Shown here: positions 46,497 to 61,045 of the stretch, in pieces
How positions within the stretch are numbered: position 1 is the stretch's first letter
Layout of the letters: every line of letters begins with the position of its first letter
Origin: Bacteroidales bacterium
GTDB taxonomy: Bacteria; Bacteroidota; Bacteroidia; Bacteroidales; VadinHA17
Direction: 5' to 3'
NCBI GenBank assembly: GCA_024763075.1
Contig: JANTGF010000005.1
Coordinates: 1 to 64,000, forward strand
Length of the DNA: 64,000 nucleotides
Program-made: the position numbers and the translations under genes
Notes under the pieces: model-generated
Told to the model about the DNA's origin: nothing
Database searches by the model: none
What the model saw: the letters and a program-made list of their open reading frames with translations, nothing else

Positions 46497-47564
46497 TTAG
46501 TTATTCTTAATATAATTCTCAATCCAGTCACCCACTTCCGATGTTGATTTGGGACTTTCATTTGTCAAATCTTCCGTTACATAATTTTCTTCCAATGATT
46601 TTTCAACGGCATCCCTGATCAATTTTGCCTCATTCTGCAAATCAAAGGCATATTCAAACATCATGGCAGCCGAGAGAATGGTTCCGAGCGGGTTGGCAAT
46701 ATTTTTACCTGCTGCCTGGGGGTAGGAACCATGAATGGGTTCAAACACGGAGGTTAAAAGACCAATTGAAGCAGATGGCAACAGACCCATAGATCCGGTG
46801 ATGACACTGGCTTCATCAGTGAGGATATCTCCAAACATATTTTCAGTAACCATAACGTCAAATCTGCCCGGATTTTGGATCAACTGCATGGCTGCATTGT
46901 CTACAAACATAAAATCCATTTCGAGTGCTGGGTAATCTTTGGCCATTTCCTGTGCTGTTTCCCTCCATAATCTCGATGTAGCAAGTACGTTTGCTTTATC
47001 AACGACCATGAGTTTTCCGGAACGTTTTAAAGCATATTCAATCCCCAGCTTAACAATCCTTTCAACTTCATGCTTTGAATATACGGATGAATCATAAGCG
47101 GTTTTTCCATCTTCAGATCTTCCCTGGGGTTTTCCAAAATAGATACCTCCGGTTAATTCACGAAGAACGATAAAATCCACATTCTCTACAAGGTCCTTTC
47201 GGATGGGAGATTTGTCGATAAGCGATGGAAAAGTGGTTACGGGCCTTACATTCGCATACAATCCCAGTTTTTTCCGCATTGCCAGCAATCCCTGTTCGGG
47301 CCTGACTTTTGCTTTTGGATCGTTGTCATATTTCGGATCACCGATTGCGCCAAATAAAACAGCATCCGAAGCTTTGCATAATTCAAAAGTTTCATCCGGG
47401 AAGGGGTTTCCTGTCTGATCTATGGCCGTAGCACCCACGACTCCTTCAGTAAAACTAAGCTTATGACCAAATTTTTTTGCTATAGCCACTGTGGCTTTTT
47501 TAGCCTGATCTATAATTTCCGGGCCGATTCCGTCTCCGGCCAAAACTGCGATATTTAAATTCAT
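46497..47564 (-). CDS. leuB: 3-isopropylmalate dehydrogenase
   Basis: [52 protein letters not shown]. Confidence 0.96.
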
Positions 47565-47629: not shown

Positions 47630-49147
47630 TTAATAAACATTTTCAATGATATTCAACATCCTTTCCGTAGCCTTTATGGCAGAAACGGTCTGGTCTGCAT
47701 CCAGTCCCTTGGAAATGATCTGTTTCCCTTTGAAGTCCCATATAATACGGGTTTCAACCAGGGCATCCGTTTTACCGCCGGGAGGAATGGTAACCCGGTA
47801 ATTTTTCAGAACCGGCCGGTCTTTATTCAGATTTGAATATATTTTCCATAAAGCATTCATGAAAGCATTATATTGTCCGTCTCCAAAAGAAGCTTCTTCA
47901 TGTATTTTTCCGTCTATTTCAATCTGAATGCTTGCTACGGGTTTCATAGAACTGGAAATTGACAAAGTGAAATTTTTAACGGAAATTGTTTTTTTATTTT
48001 GCCTGCTATGCAATACATCTGAAATAATAAACGGAAGATCTTCTATGGTGACATTTTCTTTTTTATCACCTAATTCAATAACCTTTTTGGTAACTTTTTT
48101 CAGTGATCCCGGACTGAGATGTAGTCCAAGTTCTTCAAGATTTTTCTGGATATTGGCCTTGCCGGAGAGTTTCCCGAGCGCATAAGTTCTTTTTCTGCCA
48201 AATCTTTCCGGTAACAGCCGGTTAAAGTAAAGATTGTCTTTATTGTCACCATCTGCATGAATGCCGGAAGTTTGGGTAAATACATTTCCTCCGATAATAG
48301 GTTTATTGACCGGAATACGGATTCCTGAAAAAGTTTCCACCAGGGTACTGACCTGATTTATTTTTGACTCATTCACATCCGTTTCCAGATTCATCTGGTC
48401 TTTTATAATTGCGATGATGCTGGAGAGAGGAGCATTTCCTGCTCTTTCCCCAAGCCCGTTCACTGTTCCGTGAATTCCTTTTACACCGGCTTTTAAAGCA
48501 GCAAATACATTGGCTGCTGCCAGATCGTAATCATTATGTGCATGAAAGTCAAACCACAGGCCGGGATACCGGTCAATCATCTTTTTACAAAAAGAATAGC
48601 TTTGATCCGGATTCAAAATACCCAGTGTATCAGGAAGCATAAACCGGCGGATTTTCTCATCTTTAAGAGAATCCATCAGGAAAAAAACATAGTCTTCCGA
48701 GGAGATCATGCCATTCGACCAGTCTTCAAGGTATATATTTACGGTTATATTCTTCTTTTCCGCTTTTCTTACTACATTTTTAATGTCAGCCAGGTGTTGT
48801 TCCGGAGTTTTTTTCAGCTGACCGGTTACATGCTTTAGTGATCCTTTAGTTAGTAGGTTGATGACTTTTCCACCGGCATCCCTGATCCAGTCCAGGGAGA
48901 TTTCATCATCCACGAAACCCAGTACTTCAATTTTATCAAGAAAGTTATTCTGGCCAGCCCAGTCAATGATTTTTTTAGTGGCTTCAAACTCGCCCACTGA
49001 AACGCGGGCACTGGCAACCTCAATACGATCAACATTCACTTCTTTTAAAAGTATGGTTGCCAGATGAAGTTTTTCCAGGGGAGTGTAGGAAACTCCCTGT
49101 GTTTGTTCGCCATCCCTGAGGGTGGTATCCATTAATTCAACTTTCAT
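47630..49147 (-). CDS. 2-isopropylmalate synthase-like / candidate citramalate synthase
   Basis: [50 protein letters not shown]-terminal LeuA-type regulatory domain; divergent from the leuA in the same operon. Confidence 0.85.
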   Translation of the reverse strand: MKVELMDTTLRDGEQTQGVSYTPLEKLHLATILLKEVNVDRIEVASARVSVGEFEATKKIIDWAGQNNFLDKIEVLGFVDDEISLDWIRDAGGKVINLLTKGSLKHVTGQLKKTPEQHLADIKNVVRKAEKKNITVNIYLEDWSNGMISSEDYVFFLMDSLKDEKIRRFMLPDTLGILNPDQSYSFCKKMIDRYPGLWFDFHAHNDYDLAAANVFAALKAGVKGIHGTVNGLGERAGNAPLSSIIAIIKDQMNLETDVNESKINQVSTLVETFSGIRIPVNKPIIGGNVFTQTSGIHADGDNKDNLYFNRLLPERFGRKRTYALGKLSGKANIQKNLEELGLHLSPGSLKKVTKKVIELGDKKENVTIEDLPFIISDVLHSRQNKKTISVKNFTLSISSSMKPVASIQIEIDGKIHEEASFGDGQYNAFMNALWKIYSNLNKDRPVLKNYRVTIPPGGKTDALVETRIIWDFKGKQIISKGLDADQTVSAIKATERMLNIIENVY

Positions 49148-49161
49148 TTTTCTTGTTCAAT

Positions 49162-49758
49162 TTACAATGGTCTGCTTTGTTCGTATTCTGTAATTTTTTC
49201 TTTCATGCTTAACAGGAAATCGATATCATCGAAACCATTCATCATGCATTCTTTTTTGTATGGGTTAATCTCAAATTTCTCGGATAATCCTTTCGAAAGA
49301 ATAGTAACTGTCTGGGCAGGAAGATCTACTTTTACGGTCGTTTGGGGATCTGTAACAATTTCACTGAAAAGTTCAACCAGAAATGACTCAGAGACCTGAA
49401 CCGGAAGAATTCCGTTATTCAGCGCATTATTTTTGAAAATATCGGCAAAAAAGCTGGATATCACCACCTTGAAACCGTAATCATGAATTGCCCAGGCAGC
49501 ATGCTCACGACTTGAGCCGCTTCCAAAGTTCTTCCCAGCTACAAGGATACTGCCCGAATAAACAGGATTGTTGGTTACAAAACTGCTGATGGGTTGGTTA
49601 TTATTATCATAACGCCAGTCTCTGAAAAGGTTATCTCCAAAACCTTTACGACTGGTTGCCTTCAGGAATCTGGCCGGAATAATCTGATCCGTATCCACAT
49701 TTTCTACGGGAAGTGGTACACAGGCTGATTTCAGTATGTTAAATTTCTCAATTGGCAT
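49162..49758 (-). CDS. leuD: 3-isopropylmalate dehydratase small subunit
   Basis: [36 protein letters not shown]. Confidence 0.96.
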
Positions 49759-49783: not shown

Positions 49784-51184
49784 TTAAATCAGATCGGCAG
49801 GATTGGTAATTTTACCGGTCACTGCTGCTGCTGCCGCTGTTAATGGGCTTGCAAGTAAAGTCCTTGCTCCGGGGCCCTGCCTTCCTTCAAAATTTCTGTT
49901 GGAGGTAGATACCGAATATTTTCCGGCAGGTATTTTATCATCATTCATTGCAAGGCAGGCAGAACAACCGGGCTGACGCAATTCGAAGCCTGCTTTTTCC
50001 AGTATTTCCAGTAATCCTTCTTCTTTTGCCTGACTTTCAACATGGTGGGAGCCGGGGACTATCCATGCAGTGATACTATCAGCTTTTTTCCTTCCTTTTA
50101 CTATGGATGCAAATGCACGCAGGTCTTCAATTCTTCCATTGGTACAACTCCCCACAAAAACATAGTCAACCGGTTTGCCAAGCATGGAATCACCCGGCTT
50201 AAAATTCATGTATTCAAGTGATTTATTGAACGAAAGGCGGTTGTTTTCATCTACTTCCGACAACTCAGGAATTCTTTCTGTAATATTTATACCCATTCCG
50301 GGATTGGTCCCGTAAGTGATCATCGGACCGATGTCTTCAGCTTTGTAATTCAGCTCAAGATCAAATACAGCATCCTCATCTGTTTTCAACGTTTTCCAGT
50401 AAGTTAGGGCCTTTTCCCATTCTTCCCCTGAAGGAGCAAACTCCCTTCCCTTGATATATTCAAAAGTGGTCTCATCCGGAGCGATCAGTCCACCACGGGC
50501 ACCCATTTCAATACTCATGTTGCAAATGGTCATGCGGGCTTCCATACTCAGGTTTCGTATTGCTGAACCTGCAAATTCAATAAAATATCCGGTTCCGCCA
50601 CTGGTAGATATTTTTGAGATGATGTAAAGAATAATATCCTTGGAGCTTACACCCTTTTTCAGTGTCCCGTCAATATTTATCCTCATTTTTTTTGGCTTTG
50701 GCTGAAGGATACACTGACTGGCCAGTACCATTTCAACTTCGCTGGTCCCAATTCCAAAGGCAATGCTACCCAAAGCACCATGAGTGGAAGTATGACTATC
50801 ACCACAAACTATGGTCATGCCCGGCCGGGTAATCCCCAGTTCCGGGCCGATTACGTGCACTATGCCATTGTAAGGATGACCCAGGCCATACAGGGTAATG
50901 TTATGATCATTACAGTTCTCGGTAAGTTTTTCAACCTGAATTCTGGAAAGTTCATCCCTGATGGGCTTATCCTGGTCTTTTGTTGGAATATTATGATCTG
51001 CAGTAGCCAGTGTTCTTTCAGGCCTAAAGACTTTCTGTCCACGGTTATTGATGCCGGTAAAAGCCTGTGGACTGGTTACCTCATGGATCATATGCTGATC
51101 AATATACAAAACATCCGGTCCCTGGTTTACAGAATGAACCACATGGCTGTCCCAGATTTTATCAAATAATGTTGTTGCTTTCAA
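49784..51184 (-). CDS. leuC: 3-isopropylmalate dehydratase large subunit
   Basis: [63 protein letters not shown]. Confidence 0.97.
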
Positions 51185-51216: not shown

Positions 51217-52710
51217 TTAGATGATCTTGGCAACTGCATCAATAAATGCTTCCACTGAAGCTGTAATGATATCTGTATTTGCAGAAAATCCGTAATACAT
51301 CTTGCCCCGGTTTTCAATCTGAATATGTACTTTCCCCAGGTCGTCACTTCCTCTTGTGATTGCCTGGATAAGGAACTCTTCCAAACGGACCTTTCTTTTT
51401 ACCAATTGTTTTACTGCTGAAAATGCGGCATCAATCGGCCCGTTGCCTGAAGCAGTTGCTGAAAGAATATCACCGTTTATTTTAAGCCTTACGGTAGCCA
51501 TTGGAACAGAAGACTTCCCACAAACAACCTGTAGAAGCTCCAGCTTTATAGGGCTTTCTTCATTGGCAGCTTTCCCCACCAGTACTTTCAGGTCTTCATC
51601 CTTGATGTCTTTTTTCTTATCAGCTAAATCAAGGAAACGATGGTAAATCTCACCTATCTCTTCTTTATTGAATTTATAGCCCAATACTTCAAGCCTGTGC
51701 TTCAGTGCAGCCCTTCCACTCCGTGCGGTTAATACAATTGAGGATTCCTTGATACCGACATCTTTCGGATCAATTATCTCGTAATTTTCTCTTTTCTTCA
51801 GTACACCATCCTGGTGAATTCCTGAAGAATGAGCAAAGGCATTTCTTCCCACAATTGCCTTGTTTGCCTGAACCGGCATACGCATAAGTGTAGATACCAG
51901 GCGGCTAATCTTATGGATCTTTTTCGAGTTTATATCAGTATGATATGGAAGGTCCTTATGGCTTTTCAAGGTCATAACCACTTCTTCCAGAGAAGTATTC
52001 CCAGCTCTTTCCCCCAAACCGTTAATGGTTACTTCCACCTGACGGGCTCCATGTGTAATCCCCATGAGCGTATTGGCAGTGGCCATTCCCAGATCATTAT
52101 GACAATGGGTTGATATAATTGCCTTGTCAATATTGCTGACATTATTTACAAGAAAACTGATTTTATCCCCGTATTCATCAGGCAGACAATAGCCGGTTGT
52201 ATCCGGAATGTTTACAACGGTTGCTCCGGCAGCAATTACAGCTTCCACTACTTTTGCAAGGTATTCATTTTCGGTTCTTCCGGCATCTTCAGCATAAAAT
52301 TCAACGTCATCCACAAATTTTCTGGCATATTTTACCGCATCCACTGCCCTTTTAATGATTTCATCCTGATTGGAGTTCAATTTATGTACAATATGATAAT
52401 AGGAAGTTCCTATACCAGTATGAATTCTTTTGTGTTTTGCATATTGCAAAGCTTCAGCAGCAACTTCAATGTCCTTCTTTACTGCCCGGGTAAGTGCACA
52501 TATGGTAGGATTGTTAACTGCTTTGGAAATTTCAACCACAGAATTAAAATCTCCCGGACTTGAAATCGGAAAACCTGCTTCAATGATATCCACACCCATA
52601 TCTTCCAGGCCTCTGGCTACCTCTATTTTCTCAATGGTGTTTAACTGGCAACCCGGGACCTGTTCTCCGTCCCTTAGTGTTGTGTCAAATACAAAAACTT
52701 TTTCGCTCAT
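51217..52710 (-). CDS. leuA: 2-isopropylmalate synthase
   Basis: [48 protein letters not shown]. Confidence 0.95.
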
Positions 52711-52818: not shown

Positions 52819-53865
52819 CTATTCCTGTGGTCTGAGTTTTCTAACCTGAATACCGGTTTGCCACAGTTCTGATTCTCTCATTTCCTTCAGTTCCGCATCC
52901 AGCTCATTTTTGTAATTAGGACTGCTTGTTCTATCCAGAACAACTTTTGTCTCATGCCCTGTTTTTACACTTTCATAAAGATCATTAAATACAGGTAGCA
53001 CAGCTTCACGGAATTTATGTCTCCAGTCCAGTGCTCCTCTTTGTGCTGTAGCACTGCAGTTAGCATACATCCAGTCCATGCCGTTTTCATCAACCAGTCG
53101 AATCAAACTTTGAGTCAACTCTTCAACAGTTTCGTTGAAAGCTTCACTCGGGCTGTGCCCGTTTTCGCGCAGTACTTTGTATTGTGCTTCCATGATTCCG
53201 GCTACTGCACCCATTAACACACCTCTTTCACCTGTAAGGTCACTGTAAACCTCGCTCTGGAAAGTGGTAGGGAAAAGATAACCTGAACCGATGGCAATTC
53301 CCAGAGCAAGTGTTCTTTCTTCTGCTCTTCCTGTATAATCCTGATAAATTGCATAACTGGAATTTATTCCGGTTCCGGCAAGGAAATTTCTTCTTACACT
53401 GGTGCCTGACCCCTTAGGTGCCACAAGAATGACATCAATATTCTCGGGTGGAATTACACCCGTTTGGTCAGCGTATGTAACAGAAAAACCATGAGAGAAA
53501 TACAGTGCATCACCTTCATTCAGGCATTCTTTTAAAGTTGGCCATACAGTTCTCTGAGCAGCATCAGATACCAGATACTGTATAATGGTCGCTTTCTTTG
53601 CGGCTTCTTCAATAGGAAATAAAGTTTCACCCGGAACCCAGCCATCTTTTACGGCTCTGTCCCAATCATCTTTAAAATCAGGTGACTGACCAATGATAAC
53701 ATTAAAACCATTATCTTTCATGTTTAACGATTGGGCAGGGCCCTGTACTCCGTAACCAATTACACAGATTGTTTCATCTTTTAACACTTCCTGTGCTTTG
53801 GATAATGGAAATTCTTCCCTGGTTACTACATTTTCTTCAACTCCTCCAAAATTAATTTTTGCCAT
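52819..53865 (-). CDS. ilvC: Ketol-acid reductoisomerase
   Basis: ICVIGYGVQGPAQSLNMKDNGFNVIIG, VAPKGSGTSVRRNF, SDLTGERGVLMGAVAGIMEAQY. Confidence 0.96.
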   Translation of the reverse strand: MAKINFGGVEENVVTREEFPLSKAQEVLKDETICVIGYGVQGPAQSLNMKDNGFNVIIGQSPDFKDDWDRAVKDGWVPGETLFPIEEAAKKATIIQYLVSDAAQRTVWPTLKECLNEGDALYFSHGFSVTYADQTGVIPPENIDVILVAPKGSGTSVRRNFLAGTGINSSYAIYQDYTGRAEERTLALGIAIGSGYLFPTTFQSEVYSDLTGERGVLMGAVAGIMEAQYKVLRENGHSPSEAFNETVEELTQSLIRLVDENGMDWMYANCSATAQRGALDWRHKFREAVLPVFNDLYESVKTGHETKVVLDRTSSPNYKNELDAELKEMRESELWQTGIQVRKLRPQE

Positions 53866-53911: not shown

Positions 53912-54445
53912 TTAATGTCCGTTTGCTGCATCCATTTCTTTAAGATATGAGATCAGCTCTTTAATTTGTTTGGTAATTGCCACTCTTCCCGACCGTACAA
54001 ACTGCAGGACGCCAAACTCATCCAGTTTCTTTAGAAGATCTGCTGTTTCTTTTTTATGTCCTGTTTTTTCAATCACCGCATATTCAGGTGTTATTTCAAG
54101 AAAACGTGCATTGTTGGACCTCACAATATGTTCAATTTTATTACTTGTCATTAATTCGTGTGTCTGAACTTTATATAAAGCAATTTCCTGATAAATGATT
54201 TCATCAACATTATGTACAAAGACCTTTAGTACATCCACCAGTTTTTCAAGCTGTTTGGCTACCTTTTCAACCAGTTCAGGGCTTGTGTTTACAACAATGG
54301 TCAGCATATGTACTCCTTTAACTGCAGATTCTGATGCCGTTAAACTTTCAATATTGATTTGTCTTCTGGTAAAGATGATTGTTATCTGATTTAATAAACC
54401 AATATGATTTTCGGTAAACAGTGATAATGTGAATTCTTTTTTCAT
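53912..54445 (-). CDS. ilvN: Acetolactate synthase small subunit (ACT domain)
   Basis: FTLSLFTENHIGLLNQITIIFTRRQINIESLTAS; position between ilvB and ilvC. Confidence 0.92.
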   Translation of the reverse strand: MKKEFTLSLFTENHIGLLNQITIIFTRRQINIESLTASESAVKGVHMLTIVVNTSPELVEKVAKQLEKLVDVLKVFVHNVDEIIYQEIALYKVQTHELMTSNKIEHIVRSNNARFLEITPEYAVIEKTGHKKETADLLKKLDEFGVLQFVRSGRVAITKQIKELISYLKEMDAANGH

Positions 54446-54515: not shown

Positions 54516-56252
54516 TTACTGGCATAACTTTATTTCTGAGACAGAAGCGCCGGGTTCAATCATGGGGAATATATTCCCTTCTTTTTCAACAAAAACCTCT
54601 AAAACGTACGCTCCCTTTTCTGCCAGCATTTCATCAATGGCATCTGAAATATCCTCTCGTTTTTCAACTCTTTTACCTGAAATTCCATAAGCCGAGGCTA
54701 TTTTTACAAAGTCAGGGTTTATGAGTTCGGTGGAAGCATATCTTTTATCGAAAAACATATCCTGCCACTGACGGACCATTCCCAGGAAACTGTTATTCAG
54801 GATGACCACCTTTAACGGAACCTTATACTGAAGAATGGTTCCAAATTCCTGAATGGTCATTTGAATTCCACCGTCTCCTGTAAATCCGATCACCTGAACA
54901 TCAGGTCTGCCAATCTGTGCACCCAGGGCTGCCGGTAGGCCAAAGCCCATGGTTCCCATACCACCTGAAGTGATAAAACTGTTGGGGTTCTTGAATTTAT
55001 AGTACCGGGCAGTTGCCATCTGGTGCTGACCAACATCTGTAACAATTATTGCATCCCCTTTTGTTTTATCAGAAACTAGATTTATCACTTCACCCATTCT
55101 GATTTTACCTTTTGACGGGGTTGTTTCCAGATCAATTACTTTTTCCTGTTCAGCTATATCACAAACTTTAAATTTTTCCAGCCAGTTGTCATGTGAAGCT
55201 TTATTTACCATAGGGATAATTGCCTCCAGGACTTCTTTAGCATCTCCATGAACCTCCACATCCACTGCTACATTCTTATTCAGCTCTGCCTCGTCAATTT
55301 CAATATGAATAATACTCGCTTCTGTTGCATATCTGTCCAGGCGGCCTGTGACCCGGTCATCAAAGCGCATTCCCAGTGCAATGATCAGATCGGCTTCATT
55401 TGTCCGTAAATTCGGACCATAATTCCCATGCATTCCCAATAAGCCTACATGAAGCGGGTGTCCGGAAGGAAAACTTCCAAGGCCGAGAAGGGTTGTGGCA
55501 ACCGGAATGTTCGCTTTTTCTGCAAATTCCAGTAATTCTTTTTCTGCTTTGGAAAGTAATACACCGTGGCCTGCAAGAATCATGGGTTTCCTTGAATGGT
55601 TAACGAGAATTGCAGCTGACTTTACACTTTCCATATTAACTTTTACAACCGGATTATAACTACGGATAAAGGTGCATTTTTTGTAATTGTAATCCAGCAT
55701 CTGGAGCTGGGCATCCTTGGTAATATCAATTAATACCGGACCAGGCCTGCCCGTTTGGGCAATGTAGAAAGCTTTGGCAAGAATTCCGGGGATTTCTTCT
55801 GCTTTTTTAATCTGATAATTCCATTTTACAACCGGCATGGAAATACCAATAATATCTGTTTCCTGAAAAGCATCCGTACCAATCAGGTTGGATACTACCT
55901 GGGCCGTAATAAATACTACAGGAATTGAGTCGAGCTTGGCATTGGCAATTCCGGTGACCAGATTGGTTGCTCCGGGGCCTGAAGTTGCAAAGCAGACAGC
56001 CGGTTTGTCCTGGACCATTGCATAGGCCTGAGCTGCATGAGCTGCTCCCTGTTCATGACGGGTCAGAATATGTGTTAGTTTGTCTTCTTCTTCCATAAGC
56101 TCATCATAGATGGGCATAATTGCACCTCCCGGGTATCCAAAGATTGTATCCACACCCTCTTCGATAAGTATTTTGATCAAGGCTTTTGCACCGCTGATTT
56201 TTTCAACTTTTTTTTCTTTTAACTTATCATCCTTTTTTTTCTTTGTTGCCAT
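54516..56252 (-). CDS. ilvB: Acetolactate synthase large subunit
   Basis: [66 protein letters not shown] (TPP motif). Confidence 0.96.
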
Positions 56253-56317: not shown

Positions 56318-58144
56318 CTATATGATTCGTATGCCTCCTTTGTCAGCAGAACTTACCAGTTGGGCGTATGCTTTTAAAGCTTTTGAAACTGAACGGCTTC
56401 TGTTACCTGGCTGATAAGCATCTTTTCCTTTACTTTCCATACTTATTTTTCTTGCATTTAATTCTTTATCACTCAAAATGACATTTATTTTTCTCTCCAT
56501 GATATTAATTTCAATCGGATCACCATCTTTCAGCAGTGCAATTTCCCCGCCAGCAGCAGCTTCGGGTGAAATATGGCCGATGGAAAGCCCGGAGGTTCCT
56601 CCCGAAAATCGTCCGTCTGTGATCAGGGCACATTTCTTGTCCAGTTTTTTGGACTTAATGTATGAAGTGGGGTAAAGCATTTCCTGCATTCCGGGTCCGC
56701 CTTTCGGGCCTTCGTACCTGATCACCACAACATCTCCCTCTTTTACATCTCCGTTCAGAATTCCATCAATTGATGCATCCTGGGATTCAAATATCTTTGC
56801 AGTCCCTCTGAAGGAGAACACGGATGGATCAACCCCTGCCGTTTTCACAATACACCCGTCTTTAGCTATGTTACCATACAGAACTGCCAGGCCACCATCT
56901 TTATTGTAAGCATTTTCATAATCACGGATACAGCCTTTACTCCGGTCGGTATCCAATGATTCATAACGATTGTTCTGCGAGCCCATTTCCAGGCTGCTCA
57001 CCAATCCGGGGGCACTGGAATAAATCTCTTTTGCCTCATCACTTACAGAACCATTTGTGATATCAAATTCTTTCAGGGCATCTTTCAGGTTTGGAAAATC
57101 AATTCTGTGGACAGTATTATCCAACAGGTTTAAACTGTTCAGTTCACCCATAATAGACAATACTCCACCTGCCCTGTTCACATCCTGAATGTGGAAATGA
57201 GAACTGGGAGCTACCTTGCACAAGGTCGGGACCTTTTTTGAAAGTTCATCGATATCTTTCATTTTAAAATTGACCTCTGCCTCATTTGCAATTGCCAGAA
57301 GGTGAAGCACGGTGTTTGTTGACCCGCCCATGGCAATGTCCACTGTCATTGCATTTAAAAAAGCTTCTTTCGTTGCAATTGATCTGGGCAATACTGTTTT
57401 ATCACCCTCTTCATAATACCGGTTTGTAAGCTCAACGATCAATTGAGAGGCTTTTTCAAAAAGCTTAGTCCGGTTTTTATGCGTAGCCACAATGGTTCCG
57501 TTTCCGGGTAAAGACATTCCCAGTGCTTCAGTCAGGCAGTTCATGGAATTGGCTGTAAACATCCCGGAACATGAACCGCAGGTAGGACATGCAGATTGTT
57601 CAATTTTTTTAAGATAGTTATCGCTTACAGAATCATCTACGGCCATTACCATAGCATCCACCAGGTCAAGAGACCTGTCATCCAGTGTGCCAGCTTCCAT
57701 AGGGCCGCCTGATACAAATACCGTTGGTATATTTAGACGCATAGAGGCCATCAACATTCCGGGAGTGATCTTGTCGCAGTTGCTGATGCAAACCATAGCA
57801 TCCACCATATGTGCATTGCAAACATATTCCACGCTATCTGCAATCAGATCACGGGAGGGCAGTGAATAAAGCATCCCGTCATGGCCCATTGCAATACCAT
57901 CATCAATGGCAATGGTATTGAATTCTGCTGCAAAGAAACCCTGTTTCTCAATATTCTTCTTTACCAATTGTCCGATCTTATGCAAATGTACATGACCCGG
58001 AACGAACTGGGAAAAAGAATTTACCACAGCAATAACAGGCCTGCTGAAATGTTCTTCCTTCATTCCGTTTGCTCTCCAGAGGCTTCTGGCACCAGCCATA
58101 TTCCTTCCCTGGGTGGTTGTTGAACTACGTAGTGGTATTTTCAT
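56318..58144 (-). CDS. ilvD: Dihydroxy-acid dehydratase
   Basis: [75 protein letters not shown]. Confidence 0.97.
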
Positions 58145-58168: not shown

Positions 58169-58201
58169 TAAAAAAAGCTTTCCGTTTTGCCGGAAAGCTT
58201 T
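58169..58201 (-). terminator. Attenuator terminator in the ilvD leader
   Basis: Minus strand AAAGCTTTCCG-gcaaaa-CGGAAAGCTTT followed by a T-run; 11-bp stem 58174-58184/58191-58201, located between the leader peptide and the ilvD ATG. Confidence 0.88.
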
Positions 58202-58231
58202 ATGTTATCATTTTAGCATTATACTTCCGGC
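58189..58231 (-). promoter_or_regulatory. Candidate antiterminator pairing of the ilv attenuator
   Basis: Minus-strand GCCGGAA (58225-58231) can pair perfectly with TTCCGGC (58189-58195), which includes the 5' arm of the terminator; mutually exclusive. Confidence 0.7.
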
Positions 58232-58232
58232 C

Positions 58233-58295
58233 TCAACTCTTGCGAATATGAAGGAGAATTAAAGAAAGCAGGATGTAAAAATGCCTTTTGTTCAT
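58233..58295 (-). CDS. Ile/Leu-rich leader peptide MNKRHFYILLSLILLHIRKS (ilv attenuator)
   Basis: ATG AAC AAA AGG CAT TTT TAC ATC CTG CTT TCT TTA ATT CTC CTT CAT ATT CGC AAG AGT TGA; 8 of 10 residues in ILLSLILLHI are Ile/Leu; stop lies 1 nt before the antiterminator arm. Confidence 0.75.
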   Translation of the reverse strand: MNKRHFYILLSLILLHIRKS

Positions 58296-58315: not shown

Positions 58316-58345
58316 TAAAAGTAATTGATTTTTTCTTCTTTCAAA
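58316..58345 (-). promoter_or_regulatory. Candidate Bacteroidetes-type promoter for the ilv leader
   Basis: Minus strand TTTG (58342-58345), 18 nt, TACTTTTA (58316-58323), close to the TTTG / TAnnTTTG consensus. Confidence 0.3.
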
Positions 58346-58366: not shown

Positions 58367-61045
58367 TCATTTACATTTATTTCCTACCGGCCAAAGTAGT
58401 TTTTTCTCAACTAATGTTTTTCTCGTCAGTTTATTCCCCCCCTGCTTTAATACAATTGTATATGTGCCCGGAGCATGATTTTTTGTAGGCCAGATAAGCT
58501 TATGAATACCAGAAGTTTGTTTTCCGTCAAGCTGGTCAACGACTTTGTTTCGGGTATCATAAATTTCAATTTTAACAGGTTGGGTAACATCATTTTTAAG
58601 GTAATACCATAACTGGAGCCCGTTTTTTTCATTTGGAGTAAAATAATTCCGGTCTCCCATTAGCTGATAATTTCCCCAATTTGCCTGTTCGGAATAATTC
58701 ATGGCAGGTTGAGGAATTACCTTGAAGAGGTAAATGTCTTTATTTTGTACGGCTGCTGTAAACTCTTCCAAAGGGGCAATATTTGTGACAAAAACTCCCC
58801 GGCCGTAGGTGCCTGCAATAAGATCAGATTTACGGGTTTGTATTTTCAGATCTTTTACCGGAACGGGAGGCATATTGTTTTTAAGAGGGAACCAGTTTTT
58901 ACCTTTGTCTAATGAAAAATAAACACCGATATCATTGCCAACGAAAAGCAGATCAGGATTTTCAGGATCTTCCCTGATAACAGAAACCGGTTGATCAGGA
59001 AGGTTTGATGCGATGTTTTTCCAGTTTTTGCCGTAATTGGTGGTTGCAAACAGAAATGGGCGAAAATCATCATTCCGGTAACCAGATTTTGCAACATAGG
59101 CGGTTCCGGGGTGATGCGAAGAAGCAATGATCCGGCTTACCCACATATCTGCAGGACCACCGGCTTTGGCTATCTTAGCAGTAAATTCCTTCCAGGTTTT
59201 CCCATTATCACGGGTCAGATGAACCCTGCCATCGTCTGTTCCGGCCCATATCACGCCGGGAGAAACCGGTGATTCCGCTATACTTGTAATGGTGCAGAAC
59301 ATCATATGCCCTTTACCGGCAATTTTAACAGAATCGTTTCGGGTCAGGTCAGGACTGATCTCTTCCCAGGAGTCTCCTCTGTCGGAGGAACGAAGAAGCA
59401 TTTGAGCTCCTGCATATATTGTTCCGGATTGGTGCAAAGAAACTTCCAGAGGTGTATTCCATGTAAAACGGTAAACCGGTTCTCCTTCAGGTGCTACCGG
59501 CATAATGTCAAACCGCTCTCCGGTTTTCTGATTAATCCTGAGATGACTTCCAAACTGGGTAGTACTGTAATACAATTGGTTGTCTTCAGGGTCCACCCGC
59601 CCGTACATCCCGTCCCATTTTCCAACTAACGACCAGTCTTCCGGGCCGATTTGCCCGGACCAGCCGTTGGAGGGTGCCTTCCATATCTCATGATCCTGCA
59701 AACCCATGTAAATATGGTATGGATCATCCATATCCGTTTCAACATTGTAAACTTCACCCAAAGGTAAATTGTTCAGATGATCGGTGGTTTTACCACCATC
59801 CCAGCTCACATATACCCCTCCGTCACTTCCGATGATCATATGGCGGGAGTCATTTTTATCTATCCAGAACGTCCGTACATCCCCGAACATTTTCAAAAAC
59901 CGTTGCGTGGGCGGCCAGTCCACATCCTGCCAGGTTTTCCCTTTATCGGTGGAGGTGTTTAAGTGAACACTGTTGATGAATAAATCGTTGTCATCATTAG
60001 GATCCACCCATATCTGGTTAAAGGAATAGGCTGCTTTTGAACTTACATTTACGGAATCTGCATTCATTTTCTTCCAGGTTTTCCCTCCGTTTTCCGACCG
60101 GTAAACCTCACCGCCAATAAATTTATCAAAATAGGGATCGCGCATGGGGTCAAAAGCTCCACCTTTCTTTTTTTCAATATAATCAGGTTTCTGGTTCAGG
60201 TTTTCAATCACAGTGTAGATAATTTTCGGATTCTTTGCATAAACATCAATGCCAATTCTTCCCAGATTTCCTTTGGGAAGTCCGCCTGAAAGCTCTTCCC
60301 AGGTTTTTCCCCCGTTCATGGTTTTGTATATCCGGCTGCCCTTTCCGCTGGCCTGGTAATGCCAGGGAGTTCTTTCTTTTTCATAGGCGGCAGCATAAAG
60401 CGTTTCCGTTTGCACCGGATCCATCACCAGGTCAATAACTCCGGTATAGTCATTGATAAACAAGACTTTTTCCCAGGATTTCCCTCCATCGGAAGTTTTA
60501 AAAACGCCTCTTTCTTTATTCGTGGAAAACAAATGACCCATAACTGCCACATAAACAATGGAAGGATTCTGAGGGTGGATGATAACTTTGGAAATATGCT
60601 GTGAATTTCTTAAACCCATATTCTCAAAAGTTTTCCCACCGTTTTCTGATTTGTAAATTCCATTTCCGACATAGGCAGAACGTGCATTGGAAGCTTCACC
60701 TGTCCCCACCCATATAATTTCCGGATCTGAGGGAGCTACTTCAATGGCACCGATGGAATTTGTCCCGTAATTATCAAAAACGGGTGAAAAGGTGGTGCCA
60801 TTATTTGATGTTTTCCATACACCACCATTTCTTGCAGCAATGTAAAAAGTGAATTTGTTTTTTGTATCGGGGTTGGCAGGAACGGCAATATCCGAAATCC
60901 AGGCTCCTACACGTGCAGCATTAAAATTGCGATAGGTAAATTCACTAAAAAGGGAGTCTGAAACCTGACTTGAAGCCATTATAGAAAACAGCAGCAGGTT
61001 CATCAGAACAATAGGAAACCGTTTTTTGATTTTGAATTGTAACAT
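58367..61045 (-). CDS. BNR/sortilin-like (YCF48/VPS10-type) beta-propeller glycosyl hydrolase-like secreted protein
   Basis: Repeated S-x-D-x-G-x-x-W-like blocks (KTSDGGKSWEKV, KTMNGGKTWEEL, RSENGGKTWKKM, RSSDRGDSWEEI, LTRDNGKTWKEF). Confidence 0.88.
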   Translation of the reverse strand: MLQFKIKKRFPIVLMNLLLFSIMASSQVSDSLFSEFTYRNFNAARVGAWISDIAVPANPDTKNKFTFYIAARNGGVWKTSNNGTTFSPVFDNYGTNSIGAIEVAPSDPEIIWVGTGEASNARSAYVGNGIYKSENGGKTFENMGLRNSQHISKVIIHPQNPSIVYVAVMGHLFSTNKERGVFKTSDGGKSWEKVLFINDYTGVIDLVMDPVQTETLYAAAYEKERTPWHYQASGKGSRIYKTMNGGKTWEELSGGLPKGNLGRIGIDVYAKNPKIIYTVIENLNQKPDYIEKKKGGAFDPMRDPYFDKFIGGEVYRSENGGKTWKKMNADSVNVSSKAAYSFNQIWVDPNDDNDLFINSVHLNTSTDKGKTWQDVDWPPTQRFLKMFGDVRTFWIDKNDSRHMIIGSDGGVYVSWDGGKTTDHLNNLPLGEVYNVETDMDDPYHIYMGLQDHEIWKAPSNGWSGQIGPEDWSLVGKWDGMYGRVDPEDNQLYYSTTQFGSHLRINQKTGERFDIMPVAPEGEPVYRFTWNTPLEVSLHQSGTIYAGAQMLLRSSDRGDSWEEISPDLTRNDSVKIAGKGHMMFCTITSIAESPVSPGVIWAGTDDGRVHLTRDNGKTWKEFTAKIAKAGGPADMWVSRIIASSHHPGTAYVAKSGYRNDDFRPFLFATTNYGKNWKNIASNLPDQPVSVIREDPENPDLLFVGNDIGVYFSLDKGKNWFPLKNNMPPVPVKDLKIQTRKSDLIAGTYGRGVFVTNIAPLEEFTAAVQNKDIYLFKVIPQPAMNYSEQANWGNYQLMGDRNYFTPNEKNGLQLWYYLKNDVTQPVKIEIYDTRNKVVDQLDGKQTSGIHKLIWPTKNHAPGTYTIVLKQGGNKLTRKTLVEKKLLWPVGNKCK

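Follow-up and report, generated by a model that had tools for sequence, protein, structure and literature searches.

A probable ribosome-mediated transcription attenuator upstream of the ilv-leu cluster of a Bacteroidales bacterium

Introduction

Control of ilv and leu operons by leader-peptide attenuation is textbook regulation, and the ilvGMEDA, ilvBN and leuABCD operons of Enterobacteria are preceded by attenuators of this kind. Comparative work by Vitreschak in 2004 and Lopatovskaya in 2010 reportedly also proposed leader-peptide attenuation, with coverage of Bacteroidetes. The enterobacterial type of ilv/leu attenuator has been modelled (PMC1183508), and attenuation of these operons through leader peptides has been established or suggested in several phyla (PMC10272879, PMC1262725). 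In Corynebacterium, the ilvB-II motif, or ilvBNC uORF, has been tested with reporters (PMC10272879). An initial annotation of the locus described here, made from the DNA sequence alone, considered the mechanism to be best documented in Proteobacteria. This is a fair statement, although attenuation has already been proposed for Bacteroidota, where strong clues for leader-peptide control of amino-acid operons come from Flavobacterium psychrophilum (PMC9723704), and Rfam holds the Bacteroid-trp family (RF01692; PMC2864571).

The element analysed here lies on the minus strand of the window, a stretch of 64,000 nucleotides from a Bacteroidales bacterium, at the head of an ilvD-ilvB-ilvN-ilvC-leuA-leuC-leuD-...-leuB cluster. 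As with the attenuators of enterobacterial ilvGMEDA, ilvBN and leuABCD, it combines a leader rich in Ile, Leu and Val (I/L/V) and biased in its control codons with a region 2 that stalling would free and with competing antiterminator and terminator structures, placed for ilv/leu control. It differs from them in the position of region 2 at the leader stop, the Bacteroidota-type promoter, the lack of a recognisable ribosome-binding site, and the absence of Val codons. The Corynebacterium motif likewise places an I/L/V-rich uORF and a terminator/antiterminator before ilv genes, but in another phylum, with another sequence and another first gene, ilvB (PMC10272879). The proposal for F. psychrophilum concerns the same mechanism and phylum in another lineage (PMC9723704). 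Bacteroid-trp RNA is also a Bacteroidetes cis-regulatory candidate, named after trp (PMC2864571); it has no match in this genome, which possesses its own Trp-rich leader and terminator.

Results

The leader peptide ORF (Table 1) contains the Ile/Leu cluster ILLSLILL within its 20 residues. When the 222-nt intergenic region was shuffled 3000 times with dinucleotides preserved, 3 of the shuffles contained an ATG-initiated ORF (10-40 aa) in which seven or more of eight residues were I/L/V. Translation of 58295-58233 bears out both the leader peptide reported in the initial annotation and its remark that the peptide lacks Val codons. No ribosome-binding site is recognisable for the leader, and the absence of such sites is usual for Bacteroidota genes.

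Table 1. Positions of the attenuator features and of the downstream genes in the window.
Feature	Position	Strand	Details
Bacteroidota-type promoter (predicted)	58316-58345	minus	-33 TTTG (58345-58342), 18-nt spacer, -7 TACTTTTA (58323-58316)
Leader peptide ORF	58233-58295	minus	ATG start, 20 aa, MNKRHFYILLSLILLHIRKS, TGA stop
Predicted default hairpin (1:2-like)	58215-58285	minus	From minimum-free-energy folds; leader coding sequence would sequester region 2 without a ribosome
Region 2, putative antiterminator 5′ arm	58224-58231	minus	GCCGGAA(G), begins 1 nt past leader stop
Region 3	58189-58201	minus	AAAGCTTTCCGGC; predicted partner of region 2 in the antiterminator and of region 4 in the terminator
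Region 4 with T-run, terminator 3′ arm	58170-58184	minus	CGGAAAGCTTT; whole hairpin 58201-58174
ilvD, at the head of the cluster	56318-58144	minus	NCBIfam PRK12448/TIGR00110
ilvB (large acetolactate synthase subunit)	54516-56252	minus	NCBIfam
ilvN (small acetolactate synthase subunit)	53912-54445	minus	NCBIfam
ilvC	52819-53865	minus	NCBIfam
leuA	51217-52710	minus	NCBIfam
leuC	49784-51184	minus	NCBIfam
leuD	49162-49758	minus	Named from translation only
Second 2-isopropylmalate/citramalate-synthase-like gene, between leuD and leuB	47630-49147	minus	Named from translation only
leuB	46497-47564	minus	Named from translation only

The genes from ilvD through leuB are closely packed on one strand. 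Those assigned by NCBIfam (ilvD, ilvB, ilvN, ilvC, leuA and leuC) serve to make the amino acids that the leader would sense, and leuD, the second synthase-like gene and leuB are likely to be carried on the same transcript as ilvD.

Bacteroidota promoters follow the consensus TTTG, 18 nt, TANNTTTG, from which the -7 box of the window, TACTTTTA, departs by one mismatch. Among 58 loci, the boxes are perfect in 32 and have one mismatch in 13, so that 45 of the 58 show at most a single mismatch. The spacer is nearly always 18 nt, and the boxes usually lie 25-32 nt 5′ of the leader ATG. On average, 15% of shuffled T-rich upstream regions score equally well as promoters. As this control is only moderate, the weight of the prediction rests on the constant place and spacing. 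In most loci the promoter precedes the leader ATG by about 28 nt, so that the RNA is expected to start just 5′ of the leader. Neither this promoter nor the predicted default hairpin figures in the initial annotation. A start downstream of 58233 had been raised as a finding that would speak against attenuation; the best promoter lies instead upstream of the leader ATG, as does the predicted transcription start. A sigma-70-type promoter-like site inside the leader (58246-58218) was set aside because it would split the leader in two; Bacteroidota promoters, moreover, follow another consensus than the sigma-70 type.

One base past the leader TGA, where a ribosome at the stop would cover it, stands GCCGGAAG (58231-58224). 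Its GCCGGAA (58231-58225) is complementary to TTCCGGC (58195-58189), a segment shared between the 5′ arm and the loop of a terminator-like hairpin, AAAGCTTTCCG-GCAAAA-CGGAAAGCTTT-TTTT. This hairpin has an 11-bp stem, starts 31 bases past the leader stop, and would form an intrinsic terminator between the leader ORF and ilvD. The pairing and the 11-bp terminator with its T-run are thereby found at 58231-58225, 58195-58189 and 58201-58174 as the initial annotation had described them. The match of GCCGGAAG to the terminator arm was equalled in none of 60 mononucleotide shuffles, and the fold of the leader RNA is better than that of 200 of 200 dinucleotide shuffles (z -3.6).

Predicted folds also distinguish between ribosome positions. 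With the leader masked through codon 8, 12 or 17, RNA that extends as far as region 3 is predicted, at -15.4 to -11.6 kcal/mol, to adopt the region 2:3 helix, whereas with a ribosome placed at the stop this helix is impossible (-1.4) and the terminator alone forms. The antiterminator helix comprises just 7-8 bp. On the full-length leader, the terminator is the minimum-energy fold in every case, and antitermination must therefore be kinetic; it would win by forming first.

Conservation was examined by scanning GTDB genomes with the IlvD protein, since the leader itself is too diverged for BLASTN: a search of the relatives with the leader DNA alone matched only the same-genus genome and gave one further short match. 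The IlvD scan returned 80 loci, mostly from Bacteroidales; 79 loci other than that of the window came with upstream sequence. An I/L/V-rich leader, a region 2 at its stop and a terminator occur together in about 60 of the 79, nearly all of them in Bacteroidales, and region 2 overlaps the leader stop or lies within a few bases of it in 59 of 60 loci. I/L/V make up 51% of the leader residues across 60 loci. In the family of the window, 28 of 30 fetched loci, the window's included, carry the attenuator (19 identified by script and 9 by eye), and the remaining two were unreadable by the locus parser; the parser had missed the loci read by eye because the gene start was misplaced or its rule for stems was strict. 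The initial annotation had held that attenuation would be put in doubt if the leader ORF and the pairing were not kept in close relatives. Both are kept in the same genus, family and order, although the pairing is weak in a same-genus relative (L002), where one substitution cuts the antiterminator helix to 6 pairs, no better than shuffles. The helix is also weak in about six other loci, and L002 is not the only locus at which the region 2 match, taken by itself, fails to exceed that of shuffles. The attenuator is absent from a few Bacteroidales ilvD loci (L067, L071 and L072) and from ilvD in records labelled Desulfopila, Desulfobacula and Spirochaetes. Overall, its conservation in most of the relatives examined lends strong comparative support to ribosome-mediated attenuation, and no other line of evidence is as strong as this comparison.

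Six loci without the attenuator (L063, L064, L066, L076, L077 and L079) encode an IlvD 67-69% identical to that of the window in records labelled Desulfopila, Desulfobacula, Spirochaetes and another Proteobacterium. Such genes may have been transferred without their leader, or the bins may carry wrong labels.

The two pairing partners fall into matching sequence classes. Terminator arms of CCTTTCTC with a region 2 of the type GAGAAAGG form the majority of loci, and the window and several near relatives carry CTTTCCGG arms with a CCGGAA-type region 2. The match of region 2 averaged 19-21 against arms of its own class and about 12 against those of the other class, in both directions between the CCGG and TTCTC classes. 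From clade to clade, changes in the putative region 2 are matched by changes in the terminator arm, and among 53 loci compensatory substitutions affect 7 of the 11 pairs of the terminator stem; these loci are related and hence are not independent tests.

Codon choice within the leaders is biased. CTC and CTA account for 49% of leader Leu codons and 14% of those in ilvD of the same loci, and GTC for 58% of leader Val codons and 12% of those in ilvD. Bias of control codons is a known property of attenuators (PMC1183508), and base-pairing constraints within the leader could explain part of it. In the window, a CTC/CTA-type codon is used for just one of the five leader Leu codons. Most relatives carry several Val codons; leaders devoid of Val are found also at L004, L005, L009, L011, L065, L097 and L113, several of which belong to the family of the window.

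The his, trp, thr and phe genes of the same genome were checked for leaders as well. A His-rich leader, MKSFQLHHLHHHTGFQARRR, and a terminator-like hairpin precede hisG (L089:1218-1280, G000:C25). Upstream of trpE stand a Trp-rich leader, MSKILNIRIISGKMSAWWWQWNGT (WWWQW), without a match to Rfam RF01692, and a strong, GC-rich, terminator-like hairpin (L090:1274-1348, G000:C4). A Phe/Tyr-rich leader, MNFFYYFMNNFYFGKITR, precedes a 294-aa pheA ORF (L091, reverse strand, G000:C13), and GGGATTT at its stop can pair with AAGTCCC of the terminator-like hairpin that follows. These leaders act as internal controls because the repeated residue changes with the operon product, and the genome appears to use leader attenuation for his and trp and probably for pheA. 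The Thr-rich ORF (TTSTTT) before thrA (L088:552-605, G000:C76) was rejected as an attenuator, as no convincing terminator follows it; it may reflect another mechanism or chance.

A scan of the element against Rfam for known riboswitch or leader families gave nothing at gathering score. Phe_leader (RF01859) was rejected at 35.5 bits against a gathering threshold of 55, with a peptide that is Ile/Leu-rich and ilvD as the gene; this weak match spans the whole element and reflects a start codon and a terminator laid out alike in the two. For Bacteroid-trp (RF01692), no covariance-model match was found in the genome, and none in the window at gathering score.

Discussion

The element is very probably a classical ribosome-mediated transcription attenuator that senses the charging of Leu and Ile tRNAs and controls the ilv-leu operon. 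This interpretation, already advanced in the initial annotation, is supported: the element is complete, its parts follow one another in the correct order at suitable distances, and they are conserved in relatives. From the sequence parts, their conservation, co-variation and geometry, and the predicted folds, we infer leader translation, stalling, termination and read-through in the following manner. Transcription would begin a few bases 5′ of the leader ATG. A ribosome that completes the 20-codon leader would rest at the stop and cover GCCGGAA, so that regions 3 and 4 pair and transcription terminates. If the ribosome instead stalls at an Ile or Leu codon (codons 8-17), GCCGGAA would remain accessible and pair with region 3 while region 4 is still untranscribed. 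This pairing would pre-empt the terminator and allow ilvD and the downstream genes to be transcribed. In the absence of a ribosome, the leader coding sequence would pair with region 2, and termination would therefore be the default.

The hairpin might instead be an ordinary intergenic terminator serving the upstream gene (58367-61045), in which case the ORF before it would be due to chance and ilvD would have its own promoter further downstream. That gene lies on the same strand and ends just 71 nt 5′ of the leader ATG, and the hairpin has the features of a good intrinsic terminator. However, promoter boxes sit between the upstream gene and the leader, such I/L/V clustering seldom arises by chance, region 2 co-varies with the terminator arm, and leader, region 2 and terminator accompany ilvD in about 60 loci, which together make this explanation very unlikely.

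A terminator/antiterminator layout before an amino-acid operon would also fit a T-box-like element or a metabolite riboswitch in which the small ORF is incidental, but we regard this reading as extremely improbable. The 53 aligned loci show no aptamer-like core, conservation being confined to the leader frame, the terminator and the segments that pair; the leader residues of the same genome follow the operon (His, Trp, Phe/Tyr); and no Rfam family reaches gathering score here. There is similarly scant likelihood that the leader acts mainly through reinitiation at ilvD or through mRNA stability rather than through termination. The leader stop lies 88 nt before ilvD, compared with a peak of 11-14 bp reported for Bacteroidetes (PMC4833913), and a terminator with a T-run intervenes in nearly all loci, even though short leader genes are common before bacterial genes and reinitiation has been proposed for them (PMC4833913).

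Ribosome-mediated attenuation is a known mechanism and not a new one, and the element itself, which belongs to no Rfam family at gathering score, is a well-supported addition to it. A broader proposal, whose chances we would put at about even, is that the locus represents a family of ilv attenuators that is ancestral in Bacteroidales. In this family, the RNA would start within about 20 nt of a leader that lacks a ribosome-binding site, and the control codons would mostly be the minor CTC, CTA and GTC; some lineages, this one included, would have lost Val sensing yet still control the shared Ile/Val pathway.

For Bacteroidota, in which the signals for transcription and translation are unlike those of E. 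coli, the locus offers a clean instance of leader-peptide attenuation that can be put to the test. It implies that the two processes are coupled closely enough in this phylum for attenuation to work, and about 60 natural variants are available for the study of control-codon choice and of the loss of Val sensing.
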